Positions 37,752 through 42,801 of a stretch of DNA of 45,351 bases are shown piece by piece. The notes below the pieces were generated by a model. It made no database searches. It saw only the letters and a list, made by a program, of their open reading frames with translations, and was not told the DNA's origin. Source of the DNA: Bacteriovoracaceae bacterium (GTDB lineage: Bacteria > Bdellovibrionota > Bacteriovoracia > Bacteriovoracales > Bacteriovoracaceae). Position numbers and translations under genes: made by a program. Within the stretch, counting starts at the first letter, position 1. Each line of letters starts with the position of its first letter. Where the stretch lies: NCBI GenBank assembly GCA_028378565.1, contig JAONMX010000009.1, positions 1 through 45,351 of the forward strand, in the 5' to 3' direction.

Positions 37752-37840
37752 GGGGTCGTGGCGGAATCGGTAGACGCGCCGCGTTGAGGTCGCGGTGGGA
37801 GTAAAATCCTGTGGAAGTTCAAATCTTCTCGGCCCCACCA
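37752..37840 (+). tRNA. tRNA-Leu(GAG)
   Basis: Acceptor GGGGTCG pairs with CGGCCCC (one G-T wobble); D-arm with GGTAGACGC; anticodon stem CCGCG/CGCGG around loop TTGAGGT giving anticodon GAG; long class II variable arm; T-arm GGAAG-TTCAAAT-CTTCT; discriminator A and encoded CCA. It reads CUY leucine codons. It forms the left boundary of the accessory region, and a broken gene begins 28 bases downstream. Confidence 0.93.
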
Positions 37841-37868: not shown

Positions 37869-38523
37869 ATGAATAATGAAGTTATTAATTTAGATACAGT
37901 CAAAAAGGCTCAACAATTGAGTAGATGTATCCGATTAATAAATAATAAAAATGTTCATTATTTAGACTTGGTAAAGAAACTTGAAGAAAAAAGTAAAAAC
38001 ATACAGAAATCCATCGGTGTCAATCACCATAAGAAAGCCTAATCATAAAGATAGAAAATCTTTTTCTTTTACAAAAGTAGTTGTCAATATTGACGGTAGT
38101 CGCTCCCAAACGAAAATGAGTCTTAAATCTGTTGAGTCTATTAATCGTAACTTCCGATCAAAGCTAATAGACTACAATCAAGCCATCACTCTTTTAGAAG
38201 ATGTGAAAAGAAAAGAATTAAAGATTTTAAAAGAAAAACTTGGTTTTGAATTAAATGAGAAGTCCATCATCAACAAAACAAATCAGAATGTTATTACTAA
38301 ATACCTTAATACTGAGTATACAAAAAGAAAAAATATCAAACCAATTACTCATATTCAAATAAAACAAGAAATGAAATCAATTTTAAACATTTTAGGTTCT
38401 GATGTTTCTCTTTTAAAAGATGATCAAGATACTATCTATTACAAACTGGCAAGTGATACCCGATATAGTCATGAAAATAGCGGAACAAAATATCCGGTTT
38501 CAGGTAAATTTCGGACTCCGTAG
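37869..38523 (+). pseudogene. Frame-broken gene next to tRNA-Leu, possible integrase-like N-terminus
   Basis: A first frame from ATG 37869 reads 57 residues (MNNEVINLDTVKKAQQLSR...). At the A6 run 37987-37992 a second frame takes over naturally (...LEEK then VKTYRNPSVSITIRKPNHK) and runs to 38523; reading only the second frame requires a weak TTG at 37981. Joined, about 217 residues result: basic, with a small beta-rich middle (SVSITIRKPNHKDRKSFSFTKVVVN) and helical end. Position after a tRNA and the basic character suggest the N-terminal DNA-binding part of a tyrosine recombinase, but no catalytic R-H-R-Y domain follows; the frame ends at a palindrome, where the DGR begins. Identity uncertain. 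Confidence 0.45.
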
Positions 38524-38541
38524 GGAAATATTTCCCTACGG
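38518..38541. terminator. Perfect 24-base palindrome between the broken gene and the DGR
   Basis: CCGTAGGGAAAT is followed directly by its exact reverse complement, with no loop base. It lies between the 3' end of the tRNA-proximal gene (+) and the TR end of the DGR (-), where a bidirectional transcription end is expected, though no T tract follows. It could alternatively be a binding site or an element-edge sequence. Confidence 0.4.
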
Positions 38542-38661
38542 TTGGCCCAGGAATGAAATCGAAGTGCCTTGAGGTTCTCTTTAATCCGATAAAAGTGGTC
38601 TACTACCGTAATAATAGACAATCCTTCACTTGTTGTCCTCAAGTCTGCCAACGCTAGAAAA

Positions 38662-38783
38662 ACGCAGCGAAAGCCAATGTCGTGTTCGTGTTCGAGGACG
38701 AATTGTTCAAATTGAGCGCGAACGCACCCGCGTTCGTTCCATTGTTCCAATTACCGCCGCGAAGCGCAGCGCCCCCAGAAGAA
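38662..38783 (-). repeat. DGR template repeat (TR)
   Basis: 122 bases, non-coding, 28 bases after the reverse-transcriptase stop. On the minus strand it begins with a 28-base block (positions 38756-38783) identical to VR 41377-41404, then a region of AAY codons (AAT TGG AAC AAT GGA ...), and ends in TTTCGCTGCGT shared with VR (the IMH-like end). Compared with VR, 12 of 24 TR adenines differ and 11 of roughly 55 other bases differ. The TR lacks one base near ACGACATTGG relative to VR, so copying this segment as it stands would shift the VR frame. TR and VR are much richer in G+C than their surroundings. Confidence 0.9.
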
Positions 38784-38811
38784 AAGAGGCGATTCGATTT
38801 CACACCTAATA

Positions 38812-39783
38812 TCATAATAATTGCCATGCCTCATAAGACTGCATTACTTGTGCTCTATAGGATAATGAGTACCCTTTATTCTTTAGGCGTTTTAGTTTTT
38901 TCATAAACTTCCTTTCATTTCTTTTTAAAGGAACGACACTATCTTTACTTACTAAAAAACCAAGGAAAGGAATGGGAACAAGGCCTAAAACAACATATTT
39001 ATTTGTTGGAATATTTAAGAAAAAATTCTCTTTTGCATGATTGACAAGTTTGGTCGCTACTTCTAAGGCGACCTTTTTCTCTTTGTGCATTATTATCATG
39101 TCATCCATATATCTCATATAAAAGGCATGGTCTTCTTTTTCATCCTCATAAAAATTTAAATTGAGTTCATCGCAAGCAAGACGATCTACTCCTGACAAAT
39201 AAAAATTAGCAAAAAGTTGTGAAGTCAAATTGCCAATAGGTATTCCATGCCCTCTCGCTGTAAATTCGGGAAAAGATTGTATAAGGCTCCAAAGTAATTT
39301 ATTTAGTGACTCATCACCATTGAAGCATTTTGTTATATTTTGAAACAAAACCTCATGATTGATGGAAGCAAAGTATTTACGAATATCTAACTTTACGCAG
39401 TAATAACTTTCCATTCTCTTTACTTGCTCATCCAATCTAAGAACTGCGTTTCTATTTCCCATACTGTAGCGACAAGCATAAGTTCGACACCCAAGAAAGC
39501 GATCAACTAGCGGTTCTGTGATCTTATGAATTGCTGTATGAACAATTCGATCACGAAATGGAGCGGCCATCACAAGTCTCTTTTTTGGGTCATGAACATA
39601 GAAGCTTCGATACAAACCCCATTTAAAGTTTTGAGTTGCCTTTAGTTCTTGCTCTATCGACTTGAGTTTCTCACCATAGTTAAAGATAAAGTTTTGATAG
39701 CCATATTTTGATCGCTTACCCCTTGAGCATTCATGGAATGCAGTAACAAGATTTTTAAAATCGCAAACTTGGTTAAGGAGCAT
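38812..39783 (-). CDS. DGR reverse transcriptase
   Basis: 323 residues from ATG 39783 (a TTG at 39795 in frame is an alternative; GAGAAG precedes the ATG). It copies the TR RNA into adenine-mutagenised cDNA for transfer to the VR. Reverse-transcriptase blocks: CVKLDIRKYFASIN, the DGR-type finger-palm motif GIPIGNLTSQLFANFYLS (with the SQ that separates DGR from group II intron enzymes), catalytic YMRYMDDMII (YxDD) and the thumb-side FLGFLV. It overlaps the Avd-like gene by 11 bases and is followed directly by the TR, so one transcript can carry accessory, enzyme and template. Confidence 0.93.
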   Translation of the reverse strand: MLLNQVCDFKNLVTAFHECSRGKRSKYGYQNFIFNYGEKLKSIEQELKATQNFKWGLYRSFYVHDPKKRLVMAAPFRDRIVHTAIHKITEPLVDRFLGCRTYACRYSMGNRNAVLRLDEQVKRMESYYCVKLDIRKYFASINHEVLFQNITKCFNGDESLNKLLWSLIQSFPEFTARGHGIPIGNLTSQLFANFYLSGVDRLACDELNLNFYEDEKEDHAFYMRYMDDMIIMHKEKKVALEVATKLVNHAKENFFLNIPTNKYVVLGLVPIPFLGFLVSKDSVVPLKRNERKFMKKLKRLKNKGYSLSYRAQVMQSYEAWQLL

Positions 39784-40123
39784 TTTTCTTCTCAAACTTT
39801 ATAAAGCCACCAAGCTCTCTACCAATCTCTTTTGTTATAGTTGTTATTTCTGAAAATCCCGCAACATTTAAAGCCTTTAAATCTTTTGAAAACTGAACAA
39901 GTGTTCTAACTTCATCTAAAGAATCAGATGCATTATACAAATGCTTAAGTCTAATATTTGACCTTGTGACACTTGCCTTTCTCACACTTAATAAACACTC
40001 AAGGGTTGCTTCCTCTATTTTTCTACCTAAAGTCGGGCGAAGTGCTTTCGGAAAGGTCTTTGTTCGATGAAATGTCTGTATGCTTAATTGATAACAATCA
40101 CTATATATTTTTGGATTTTTCAT
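39773..40123 (-). CDS. avd: Avd-like DGR accessory protein
   Basis: 116 residues, all-helical and basic; the length and four-helix pattern (YSDCYQLSIQTFHRTKTFPKALRPTLGRKIEE, ATLECLLSVRKAS, SLDEVRTLVQFSKDLKAL, FSEITTITKEIGRELGGFIKFE) match the bAvd family, which forms a barrel pentamer and binds the reverse transcriptase and template RNA. Overlaps both neighbours: 23 bases with the upstream HTH gene and 11 with the RT gene. Essential for retrohoming in the Bordetella phage system; same role inferred here. Confidence 0.88.
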   Translation of the reverse strand: MKNPKIYSDCYQLSIQTFHRTKTFPKALRPTLGRKIEEATLECLLSVRKASVTRSNIRLKHLYNASDSLDEVRTLVQFSKDLKALNVAGFSEITTITKEIGRELGGFIKFEKKNAP

Positions 40124-40727
40124 TCTTGTTATCTAACCTTTTAATTAATCCTGAGTAAGCAGGAAGTAGTTCATCTTCTAGTATTTCTATCACTTTCTTA
40201 TTCAATTCTTTTTCATCTTCGGTAAAATAAATTAATGCCAAGGCTGCTCCTAGCTCTATTCGAGATCTTTCATAGAGTTTAATTTTATCTTTCAAATGAA
40301 ACGCATAATATCCAGATCCAAGATGGGAGAGCGCACGATGAAAATGATCTTCAATCTTTTTTTCAAGACCTGTTTCTTTAACCATTTCCTTTACTTCACT
40401 TTTCCTAAGTATCTCTTTTGTGAGCTTAAACGCTCTTAAATTTTTTACTGAAAACTTCTTATTTTTTTCCTCTTGAGCATAATCACTTCGGTCTTTCCTG
40501 ACATTAATTATCGGATTTGAGTTATTTTGGGCTTGCTCTTTCTGCCGATGACTGAAGCCAAAACGATTAGAAAAGGAATCAAGAGATGGCCTTTTGATAT
40601 ACCATGATTTGCCGACTTTGATCGCTTCTATTTCCTTAGATTTAATATAATTAAGGACAGACCTAGTGGTAACGCCCAATAGTTCTGATGCTTCTTGTAC
40701 TGTTACTTCTTGATCTTTGTTTTTCAT
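40101..40727 (-). CDS. HTH (excisionase/MerR-like) protein fused to helical domain, DGR operon
   Basis: 208 residues. Residues ~8-55 form an excisionase-type winged helix: VTVQEASELLGVTTRSVLNYIKSKEIEAIKVGKSWYIKRPSLD. After a polar linker (~60-85), residues ~95-200 are helical (NLRAFKLTKEILRK, HFHRALSHLGSGYYAFHLKDK, LGAALALIYFTEDEKELNKKV), resembling the Avd fold in composition. It is the first gene of the HTH-avd-RT-TR operon, overlapping avd by 23 bases. It may regulate the operon or take part in DNA targeting. The ATG follows GGAAAAGCTC. Confidence 0.8.
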   Translation of the reverse strand: MKNKDQEVTVQEASELLGVTTRSVLNYIKSKEIEAIKVGKSWYIKRPSLDSFSNRFGFSHRQKEQAQNNSNPIINVRKDRSDYAQEEKNKKFSVKNLRAFKLTKEILRKSEVKEMVKETGLEKKIEDHFHRALSHLGSGYYAFHLKDKIKLYERSRIELGAALALIYFTEDEKELNKKVIEILEDELLPAYSGLIKRLDNKNEKSKNI

Positions 40728-40752
40728 GAGCTTTTCCGAAAATTCCGCATAT

Positions 40753-40769
40753 ACGTTTTATATTACGTA
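40753..40769. promoter_or_regulatory. ACGT-repeat box upstream of the DGR operon and XRE gene
   Basis: ACGTTTTATATTACGTA, with a further ACGT at 40781, lies between the divergent HTH-DGR operon (start 40727) and the XRE gene (start 40803). A 17-base box differing at one position precedes the receiver gene (43023-43039). ACGT spacing is 12 in both boxes. Likely operators for a shared regulator (inference). Confidence 0.5.
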
Positions 40770-40802
40770 CTTATTTTATTACGTTTAGGCAAGACTAATA
40801 AT

Positions 40803-41035
40803 ATGGATGATTATGGTAAAGAGGTTGTAAATTTAGGCTTAGTTTTGCGCGAACTAAGACATAGACAGGATGGACTCTAGAAGAAACAGAAGAAAATGGC
40901 TGGGATGATTGGAAATATTTACAACGTATAGAAAATGGAAAAAATATAACTATTAAGACTTTCTTAAAGCTCTGTGATCTCTATAGAATACGGCCATCAA
41001 AAGTTTTTCAAAAAGTAGAAAACAAGGATAAGTAG
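40803..41035 (+). pseudogene. Frame-broken XRE-type transcriptional regulator
   Basis: From ATG 40803 the frame reads MDDYGKEVVNLGLVLRELRHRQ and then hits a stop (TAG at 40876-40878). Adding one base at CAGGA (40866-40870) lets it continue GWTLEETEENGWDDWKYLQRIENGKNITIKTFLKLCDLYRIRPSKVF to TAG 41035, a 77-residue XRE/Cro-type helix-turn-helix protein. Gly-Trp-Thr-Leu-Glu-Glu is the recognisable start of helix 2, and the RIRPSKV end resembles VRPSKMV of the XRE gene at 45085. The single-base loss most simply comes from CAGGGATGG. Divergent from the DGR HTH gene; a hairpin terminator follows. Confidence 0.6.
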
Positions 41036-41039
41036 AGAA

Positions 41040-41093
41040 GATTTTCCGAAACTCAATTACCTTTTCCGAATTCCTTTCGGAATTTTTGGAAAG
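41040..41093 (+). repeat. TTTTCCGAA repeats
   Basis: ATTTTCCGAA (41042), CTTTTCCGAATTCCTTTCGGAATTT (41064-41088, with a TTCCGAA/TTCGGAA inverted pair) and another CTTTTCCGAAAATTCCG at 40732-40748 make a recurrent motif around the XRE/HTH gene pair. Could be operator half-sites; not assigned to any protein. Confidence 0.3.
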
Positions 41094-41113
41094 AGAGATA
41101 TTAAAATTTTTCC

Positions 41114-41132
41114 GATGCCCCTTCGGGGCATC
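41114..41132 (+). terminator. Hairpin after the XRE gene
   Basis: GATGCCCC-TTC-GGGGCATC is an eight-pair G+C-rich stem about 80 bases after the XRE stop, followed by TCATATAAAA. Probably ends transcription from the XRE gene; it also lies between VR-gene 3' end and the DGR operon, so it may insulate both. No long T tract. Confidence 0.45.
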
Positions 41133-41200
41133 TCATATAAAACAGCGATATATTGTTTTAGATATTAAGGTTTTATAATTTCCAATGACCAAGAGTCAAG

Positions 41201-41220
41201 GGATGAGCTAAAGCTCATCC
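41201..41220 (-). promoter_or_regulatory. Hairpin downstream of the VR
   Basis: GGATGAGC-TAAA-GCTCATCC: an eight-pair stem with four-base loop, about 60 bases beyond the VR 3' edge on the coding strand and absent from the TR flank. Bordetella-type DGRs require a similar hairpin/cruciform of 7-10 pairs with a 4-base loop just after the IMH in the target. The loop sequence here (TTTA on the coding strand) does not match the loop consensus I recall (GRNA), and the distance is greater. Confidence 0.4.
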
Positions 41221-41268
41221 TGCCAATTGCCTGCCAACTTAGATTTTGCTAAATGAGCAATTATGACG

Positions 41269-42801
41269 CTATGGGCGATAGACGCAGCGAAACCCAACGC
41301 CCGTGTTCGCGTACGACGGAACATTGCTCAGATCGAGCGAGAACGCACCGGCGTACCTTCCACCGCTCCAAGCACGGCCGCGAAGCGCAGCGCCCCCAGA
41401 AGAATTGCTTCCTGCGTAGTATCTGCCAATTTTATCGCATCCTTGTAGGGAGGTGTCTGTTGCTTGCCATGAATCGGGAAACATTTCATCGCCCCCTGCT
41501 ATATTGGTATCGAGGTCTACAAATTCTTTCCATGCACTTTGAGGTGATCCCTCGGAGGATATGTAGGCTTTATTAGCTGGGGTAACTGTTACGAGAGTGC
41601 TTGTCATGTCCCAATCTACCCACTCCCAAACATTTCCAGATAAATCCCAAATTTCTTCACCGTTATCGAGTGTCAGGCTTGCTGTGCCGTTATCTGACCG
41701 TCCTGAGCCAAAATCAGGGTTAGGACCGTTGTAGCCTGAATCACCGCCCGTACAAGCACTTGTTCCCCCGACATTACCTCGCATAAGGCAGCCAGACCCT
41801 ACAGATCCATCGGTCCAATTTGCGGCGACATTTTCTACGTTTCTTGCTATCGTCATCCATTCAGGATTTGAAATGAGAGCATAGGTTCCATCTGTATTAG
41901 TGTCGCTGTCTATGTCACCACGTGAGCTTTCAGAATTAAGATCGTCACACTCGTTCCAAGCATTAGTTTGATTAATTGAGACCCAAGGAGTAGAAGCTTC
42001 CTGAGAAACGGCATTACCAGATCCATCATTTTTTGCTTCATATTTCATCACACAAAAAGCAGAGACTCCTAAACCTGCATTTGCTGGAACACCTATGTAT
42101 CCAGTTGGGCAACTGTTTAAAGTGTAAGAAGCACTTGCGGTTGAACAGCTTGAAGTATTTGTTCCTGTCGCATTAGCGTAAAACGTATAAGAACCAGCGC
42201 TCAAGCTTGAAGTTGTAATATTTACAGTTGTACCTGTTGAAGCAGCAGAACCAACCTGTGTCGAGCAGCTTGAGTCTGTAAAGAGGCGTATGGTGTCGCC
42301 ACTCTTTACACCACTGATCGTTATCGTTGGTGTCTGGTCAAAAGCTGGAGAGCTTGAAGGTGAATTTAGACTTAAACCCGATGGTGCGTCTGGGGCAGAG
42401 TTAGTTGTGAAGCTAACATCATTTGTATTTGTATCGACTCTTCCTTCTGAGTCAACGCCTCTTACTCTATAGCTATATGTGTTTCCTGGAGTAAGGCCAG
42501 ATAAACTGTAAATTGCAGTTGGTGCGGCAACCGTTGAAACATATACAGTTCCCGAGCTTGTATTAAAAACTTGATAAACTACAAAATCAGCACTGTGACT
42601 CCAATTAATAACAGCACTAGTATCTGTAACCGAGCCTATTGAATCTATACCTGAAAAGCTTGCATTTGTGGTATTCGTTTCTGTCGAAGTGCTACCGCTT
42701 GCAGTTTCTCCAAAATCTGCTGTTCCAATTCCGTTACAAGCTGTCAGAGATGCTATGGATACAAGTAAGAATGTGAAATTACAAAGTCTTTTCTTATTCA
42801 T
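41269..42801 (-). CDS. DGR target lipoprotein with FGE/C-type-lectin-like variable domain
   Basis: 510 residues. Lipoprotein signal FTFLLVSIASLTAC (lipobox LTAC, Cys22). Residues ~50-140: fibronectin type III-like domain (VINWSHSADFVVYQVFN, GLTPGNTYSYRVRGVDSEG). Residues ~140-230: bacterial Ig-like domain (TPTITISGVKSGDTIRLFTD, AGSYTFYA). Residues ~230-510: formylglycine-enzyme/C-type-lectin fold used by DGR targets (CPTGYIGVPANAGLG, NGEEIWDLSGNVWEWVDW), ending in the variable repeat LRGRAWSGGRYAGAFSLDLS and NVPSYANTGVGFRCVYRP. The 41282-41404 VR is diversified by the TR. Surface-anchored binding protein, ligand unknown. A sigma-70-like promoter precedes it. Confidence 0.93.
   Translation of the reverse strand: MNKKRLCNFTFLLVSIASLTACNGIGTADFGETASGSTSTETNTTNASFSGIDSIGSVTDTSAVINWSHSADFVVYQVFNTSSGTVYVSTVAAPTAIYSLSGLTPGNTYSYRVRGVDSEGRVDTNTNDVSFTTNSAPDAPSGLSLNSPSSSPAFDQTPTITISGVKSGDTIRLFTDSSCSTQVGSAASTGTTVNITTSSLSAGSYTFYANATGTNTSSCSTASASYTLNSCPTGYIGVPANAGLGVSAFCVMKYEAKNDGSGNAVSQEASTPWVSINQTNAWNECDDLNSESSRGDIDSDTNTDGTYALISNPEWMTIARNVENVAANWTDGSVGSGCLMRGNVGGTSACTGGDSGYNGPNPDFGSGRSDNGTASLTLDNGEEIWDLSGNVWEWVDWDMTSTLVTVTPANKAYISSEGSPQSAWKEFVDLDTNIAGGDEMFPDSWQATDTSLQGCDKIGRYYAGSNSSGGAALRGRAWSGGRYAGAFSLDLSNVPSYANTGVGFRCVYRP
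41282..41404 (-). repeat. DGR variable repeat (VR)
   Basis: 123 bases at the 3' end of the lipoprotein gene. The 28 bases 41377-41404 equal the TR block 38756-38783; the opposite end shares TTTCGCTGCGT. In between it differs mainly, but not only, at TR adenine positions, changing AAY codons to Ala, Ser, Gly, Tyr and Asp codons at the ligand-facing positions of the fold. Contains one more base than TR near GGGCGTTGGG. Confidence 0.92.

Follow-up and report, generated by a model that had tools for sequence, protein, structure and literature searches.

A diversity-generating retroelement (DGR) was analyzed on the minus strand of a 45,351-nt Bacteriovoracaceae contig (JAONMX010000009.1), the whole of which is referred to here as the window. 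The contig is part of a metagenome-assembled genome (MAG) that is 56% complete, and matches among related genomes placed its host in the Bacteriovoracaceae (Bdellovibrionota), in line with the likely predator lineage that the initial annotation of this DNA had assumed. This lineage is known for bacterial predators. The initial annotation had also listed a lipoprotein gene with a variable repeat (VR), a helix-turn-helix (HTH) gene, an Avd-like gene, a reverse transcriptase (RT) with a YxDD motif, and a template repeat (TR), and all five were present at the assigned place and on the assigned strand. The element extends from 38510 to 42801, further than was first noted, and its order on the minus strand is lipoprotein gene with VR, HTH gene, avd, RT gene, TR, and a 145-nt folded RNA. 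About 540 bp separate the target gene from the HTH gene; the HTH gene overlaps avd by 23 nt, and avd overlaps the RT gene by 11 nt. The cassette comprises the following features:

41269-42801, minus strand: target gene for a 510-aa lipoprotein with a lipobox (LTAC), an fn3 domain, and a C-type-lectin/FGE-like C terminus
41282-41404, minus strand: VR, at the 3′ end of the target gene; best match to the TR in the window
41043-41114, unstranded: phased CGGAAA/TTCGGAA sites (at 41044, 41064, and 41076, also 41109) in the target-HTH gap
40733-40740, unstranded: single CGGAAA/TTCGGAA site directly before the HTH start codon
40101-40727, minus strand: HTH gene; winged HTH (residues 1 to 60), disordered linker (61 to 90), four-helix bundle (about 87 to 208)
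39773-40123, minus strand: avd, 116 aa (phrog_3206 "Avd protein of DGR," 4.2e-15; NF033474, 1.4e-12)
38812-39783, minus strand: DGR RT with YMDD and IGNLTSQ motifs (profile and structure-based matches, alignment, tree)
38662-38785, minus strand: TR, about 27 nt 3′ of the RT stop codon; lacks one A
38510-38654, minus strand: conserved structured RNA, candidate DGR spacer RNA, 145 nt, directly 3′ of the TR; strong terminal hairpin

The proposed assignment as a DGR was borne out by the RT and Avd matches and by the A-biased differences between TR and VR. The RT carries the GxxxSQ and YxDD motifs and matched the RTs of phage DGRs (phrog_1423, E-value of 3.9e-73) and the solved bRT of BPP-1 (8ub7, 2.5e-36); in a tree of 76 DGR RTs, which had no non-DGR RT among its rows, it grouped with DGR RTs from other phyla. 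Avd was recognized as the DGR accessory protein by several profile libraries, its NF033474 score (1.4e-12) falling under the curated cut-off of that family. A single RT was detected across the assembly of this genome. TR and VR form the sole strong pair in the window, with agreement at 75 of 92 non-A positions (40 in the next-ranking pair), and differences within the core fall on 12 of 24 A and 10 of 66 non-A positions (P = 0.0013).

The HTH gene appears, from these sequence searches, to define a DGR variant confined to Bdellovibrionota. Its N-terminal domain matched HTH_17 (8.5e-11) and the excisionase family TIGR01764 (4.9e-9), and the nearest structures to the winged-helix half were phage Xis, BldC, and RdfS (Foldseek, probability of 1.00), both domain and fold being of the BldC/Xis type; the overall architecture and the linker disorder were taken from an AlphaFold2 model. 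A single-sequence RT search of genome contigs found no relative, but an alignment-based search did, and the surroundings of additional RT matches within the order, 14 stretches in all, served for comparison. Nearly all of these show the order target-HTH-avd-RT-TR where the contig permits. The relatives are MAGs of Bacteriovoracaceae, Bdellovibrionia, and Bdellovibrionaceae. Among 129 genomes of the order, the RT was found in 10, the HTH gene in 11, and both in 9; the cases with only one of the two trace to an RT that has diverged, an HTH gene in decay, and a locus at the edge of its contig. At the phylum level, 20 of 369 genomes contained the HTH gene, and the loci examined outside the family lay within DGRs wherever the contig allowed checking. 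Homologs turned up in Bdellovibrionota only, and a search of viral contigs, phages, and plasmids gave no match. No HTH gene accompanies the RT at 66 further loci, including one that is cut by a contig end. The RTs of HTH-bearing loci formed one clade of the 76-RT tree (support of 96/87), and its sole HTH-less row is that contig-cut locus (L048).

TTCGGAA/TTCCGAA sites and the half-site CGGAAA are concentrated in the target-HTH gap and in the 5′ half of the HTH gene. The density of CGGAAA was 16.4/kb in the gap and 11.6/kb in the HTH 5′ half, compared to 0.63/kb in the remaining cassette, and many members carry such sites inside the 5′ half of their own HTH gene. The spacings between sites peaked at 10, 21, 30 to 31, 41, and 51 bp, which are steps of the helical turn. 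Pairs of sites 9 to 12 bp apart numbered 42 in 14 HTH loci, a few of which are near-copies of one another, versus 1 in 782 kb of HTH-less DGR loci. In a motif-free test, CGGAAA-type words scored best at most loci, and frequently none of 200 shuffles equaled their score; the phased motif of L162 was weak in this test. In L166, which has a diverged winged helix, the best word was CGGCAA (10 copies) with the same spacing. Although correlative, this motif shift speaks most strongly for recognition of the array by the HTH protein. In L061 (262-378), a 10-bp unit, CCAGCCCAAG, is repeated about 12 times in tandem close to the HTH gene start, again with one helical turn for each unit. A Cro-type protein was rejected as the general reader because the array is present in many more loci than its gene, which was found only in the window (frameshifted), L007, L039, and L040 among the loci screened.

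The RNA directly 3′ of the TR showed a consensus of 44 pairs in which 96.9% of the cells were paired and 20 of 44 pairs had two-sided changes, values that 0 of 500 shuffles reached. The window copy scored 131 bits with the covariance model R1 and had a minimum free energy z-score of −3.65. R1 matched the cassettes of the family plus L061 and L157 and had no match at about 60 other DGR loci; a search of Rfam gave no family match. In BPP-1, the spacer RNA 3′ of the TR recruits RT-Avd and primes cDNA synthesis (PMC12875486). The structured RNA corresponds to this spacer by position and, by analogy, may have the same role. The DGR RNA was often followed directly, on its own strand, by a LysM-like gene (L039, L040, L042, L043, L044, L046, L048, and L006); the copy on contig C83 of the window's own genome matched LysM (2.7e-7), and two other such genes had no match in a Pfam scan. 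It was rejected as an obligate part of the cassette, being absent from the window, L038, and L041.

Modeling of the C-terminal half of the HTH protein alone, from 15 relatives, gave a four-helix bundle (pLDDT of 88, pTM of 0.81). Its nearest PDB structures in Foldseek were 2gsc, 2rld, and Avd (4dwl and 8ub7), with TM scores of 0.62 to 0.71 and probabilities of mostly 0.9 to 1.0, yet weak E-values (0.08 to 2); in a library of viral structures (BFVD), the top match was an "Avd-like protein" (0.036). A profile comparison of the HTH protein with Avd (hhalign) gave a probability of 0.1% and hence no sequence link, and a Pfam scan of the C-terminal half in 15 members found no match to IVP/bAvd (PF05635). 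Homology of the bundle to Avd by sequence was dropped, as the profiles show none; the bundle is predicted to share the Avd/IVP fold, a likeness and not family membership.

The DGR had initially been called complete, which turned out to be misleading with respect to its template. The neighboring TR has a one-base deletion and mismatches its VR (1-nt indel and 10 non-A differences), so that the window lacks a usable same-locus pair; the missing A is carried by VRs and by other TRs of the clade. If copied into the target, this TR would frameshift its last strand. Same-locus pairing is not obligatory for every DGR locus, and trans templates are known. A second TR, with a folded RNA of its own 3′ of it (163 bits versus 131 in the window), lies at the end of contig C83. 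Compared to this TR, the VR on contig C101 is changed at 11 of 23 A and 0 of 62 non-A positions, and the window VR is changed at 12 of 23 A and 3 of 62 non-A positions, a better fit than with the adjacent TR. The C83 TR is 6 nt shorter than both VRs, and this difference is in frame. Since the C101 VR fits the C83 TR with A changes only, some template was recently active. The window VR was probably last written from a C83-type TR, in trans. Contig C101 contains a target gene, a frameshifted HTH gene, and a truncated avd but no RT; contig C85 (3-700, L019) holds a decayed HTH gene and avd, also without an RT; and contig C124 (L008) carries an orphan target whose VR bears A-biased changes. The C85 HTH gene and avd and the C124 target resemble the L042 lineage and not that of the window, so this genome may bear remnants of three or more DGR lineages. 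The simplest reading of these sequences is that there were several DGR copies, mostly decayed, with templates acting in trans.

Usable TR/VR pairs at the same locus and with 0 non-A differences were found in the relatives L040 (changes at 11 of 25 A), L042 (15 of 25), L044 (15 of 27), and L047 (14 of 27). Outside the family, L159, L160, L161, L163, and L166 likewise have TR/VR pairs with 0 non-A mismatches. Around the RT of L165 (G329), 326-bp near-identical repeats with few A changes occur besides a TR/VR-like pair, which suggests duplicated template regions.

With somewhat more confidence than doubt, we interpret the locus as a DGR variant specific to its clade, in which the HTH protein recognizes the array and influences the diversifying machinery. 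Judged from the sequences, the HTH protein would most likely bind the array and regulate, or tether, the Avd-RT-RNA machinery. If the mechanism is that of the homologous BPP-1 system, RT and Avd would bind the folded RNA 3′ of the TR, and the TR would be copied to cDNA with errors opposite adenines. This cDNA would replace the VR at the 3′ end of the lipoprotein gene, so that cells would display varied C-type-lectin-like surface domains. The HTH protein could coat the phased array head to tail, in the manner of BldC (PMC5859096), and control its own operon, and its Avd-like end could contact Avd or its complex, whereby the expression or the position of the machinery would be set at the edge of the target.

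Several observations weigh against this interpretation. The predicted Avd-like fold rests on models and weak E-values (0.04 to 2) and has no profile link, and the four-helix bundle is a common architecture. Within the window the array is thin: it has 3 phased pairs, and 8 of 200 shuffles scored as high. The motif-free test found no phased motif in L159, L160, and L163; the array is not universal in the clade. Some loci encode a second DNA-binding protein, the product of a divergent Cro-type gene. With the genome at 56% completeness, a second RT beside the C83 TR may simply be absent from the assembly, and the one-base deletion in the window TR could be an assembly error.

An explanation that we consider a serious competitor, at somewhat less than an even chance, is that the HTH protein does no more than autoregulate transcription of the DGR operon, with a helical end that serves oligomerization or sensing and makes no contact with Avd or the RT. 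The clustering of sites around the operon start and within the HTH gene fits this explanation, as do the control of promoters via repeat arrays by BldC-family proteins (PMC5859096) and the missing sequence link between the HTH protein and Avd. However, the nearest folds in two separate libraries were Avd/IVP proteins, and the overlap of the HTH gene with avd and its coinheritance with the RT clade are tighter than expected of a replaceable regulator.

Direct aid in homing, in which the HTH protein would tether the Avd-RT-RNA complex to the target edge through hetero-assembly of its bundle with Avd, seems less probable to us. It would be consistent with the predicted Avd-like fold and with the location of the array, which at most loci separates the VR from the operon, whereas the orphan VR on C124 has A-biased changes with just sparse sites nearby, such that homing may do without an array at the target. 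Equally tentative is the proposal that, in Bdellovibrionota DGRs, a DNA-binding Avd-like adaptor might assemble on the phased array and with Avd, thereby physically positioning the RT-RNA complex at the target or gating it there; if true, this adaptor would constitute a dedicated control and targeting module of DGRs.

The window cassette could also be a dead relic that no longer diversifies in this strain, which we regard as rather doubtful. The TR deletion, the non-A mismatches, the frameshifted Cro-type gene, the reduced array, and the decayed RT-less copies on C101 and C85 all point in this direction, but the reading frames of the RT, Avd, HTH, and target genes are unbroken, the pairs of the folded RNA are preserved, and the fit of the C101 VR to the C83 TR by A changes alone argues for recent template activity. 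Very improbable, finally, is an ordinary DGR with the HTH gene as an excisionase-like passenger from a mobile element near the tRNA-Leu gene: the excisionase-family match and the unrelated mobile element (recombinase and relaxase-like gene) at the tRNA-Leu site of a genus mate would suit it, but the HTH gene stays beside avd across several families with a single RT clade origin, no integrase family was recognized in the open reading frame (ORF) nearest the tRNA, and phages, plasmids, and viral contigs gave no HTH match.

The target had been predicted to be a lipoprotein, and this assignment held: its lipobox recurred in 12 of 12 target proteins examined from the clade and this genome. Pfam matches comprised fn3 (6.7e-7) and, weakly, FGE-sulfatase (0.046; the FGE-like match of the L040 target reached 9.1e-7), and the VR occupies the C-type-lectin-like C-terminal end of the 510-aa protein. 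The target paralogs on C101 and C124 are 57 to 59% identical. Further elements lie in and beyond the VR:

41282-41292, minus strand: probable initiation of mutagenic homing (IMH) sequence, TTTCGCTGCGT, at the VR 3′ end
41182-41227, minus strand: CTTGG-type short repeats around a hairpin, found by inspection
41201-41220, minus strand: perfect 8-bp hairpin GGATGAGC-TTTA-GCTCATCC inside the CTTGG-type repeat element
41114-41132, minus strand: terminator-like hairpin GATGCCCC-GAA-GGGGCATC between the target gene and the HTH operon
40803-41035, plus strand: frameshifted remnant of a divergent Cro/C1-type HTH gene (second frame, 40865-41032)

By inspection, CTTGG-type repeats also follow the other VRs examined, that of the orphan target on C124 among them; at several loci they come with hairpins, and terminator-like hairpins lie beyond these repeats. 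Comparable hairpins followed by T-runs were seen in L007, L038, and L040; the terminator-like hairpin of the window was missed by a simple terminator scan, and matches in a simple promoter scan were no more frequent than in shuffles. The HTH gene, initially considered an uncommon first gene of the operon, is indeed unusual but does not simply lead an operon shared with the lipoprotein gene, since terminator-like hairpins and the site array intervene. The second frame of the Cro-type remnant matched the intact copy on C101 (3e-27), and the gene is intact in L007, L039, and L040.

A tRNA-Leu(gag) gene (37752-37840) adjoins the DGR and has a counterpart in the genus mate G001 (stretch L151, 11359-11443), where an unrelated mobile element carrying serine-recombinase-like and relaxase-like genes sits in the same neighborhood. 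The site looks like an integration hotspot. Due to this occupation, G001 was rejected as an empty-site comparison, and the boundary of the DGR insertion could not be set. Between tRNA-Leu and the DGR lies a 180-aa ORF (37981-38523, plus strand), the 3′ end of which overlaps the edge of the DGR RNA; this ORF had no family match.

A vertically kept DNA-binding accessory protein with its own phased sites would turn the targeting of cDNA and the switching on of diversification into testable questions; the homing step of DGR cDNA is incompletely understood (PMC12875486). With the covarying RNA and model R1, the template RNA of this group can be located and its limits defined. In a predator lineage, diversification of surface lipoproteins would be a plausible route to varied contact with prey or phages.

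DGRs, TR-last orders, lipoprotein targets, and trans templates are already known. The position of the TR 3′ of the RT, pointed out initially as a departure from the Bordetella-type arrangement, is real but not novel, as it is one among many known cassette orders (122 pattern groups; PMC6642488). A review of DGRs names Avd, HRDC, and MSL as accessory proteins (PMC10053308). We found no description of a winged HTH-bundle accessory protein, a phased array, or this RNA in the DGR papers compared; a large NAR (Nucleic Acids Research) survey of 2018 lay outside this comparison, and prior notice is possible. The BPP-1 DGR (mtd-avd-TR-brt) shares the RT, Avd, A-specific TR/VR differences, and a C-type-lectin-like target end with the present element, as well as a structured RNA 3′ of the TR and a hairpin 3′ of the VR (PMC12875486); the CTTGG-repeat/hairpin element sits where BPP-1 has its stem-loop. 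It differs in that here the TR follows the RT, an extra winged HTH-bundle gene and a phased array are present, the target is a cellular lipoprotein, and the RNA falls outside Rfam. The DGRs of Treponema denticola likewise have lipoprotein and remote targets and an accessory gene overlapping the RT (PMC4891356), but their accessory is an HRDC protein preceded by the TR, whereas Avd and the HTH protein occur here and the TR comes last. Thiohalocapsa PB-PSB1 also has multiple degenerate loci with targets diversified in trans; there, the targets belong to conflict systems, and the HTH of DGR 8 replaces an effector and is not an RT-linked accessory (PMC10907252). BldC, Xis, and RdfS share the fold of the HTH N-terminal domain but have no C-terminal bundle, and BldC oligomerizes head to tail on 9-bp repeats (PMC5859096), while the sites described here are about 10 bp apart and lie within a DGR. 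The bundles of Avd and of the 23S rRNA IVP (S23) proteins (4dwl, 2gsc, and 2rld) resemble the predicted fold of the HTH C-terminal half (TM scores of 0.62 to 0.71); they have no detectable sequence similarity to it, and in the HTH protein the bundle is fused to a DNA-binding domain.

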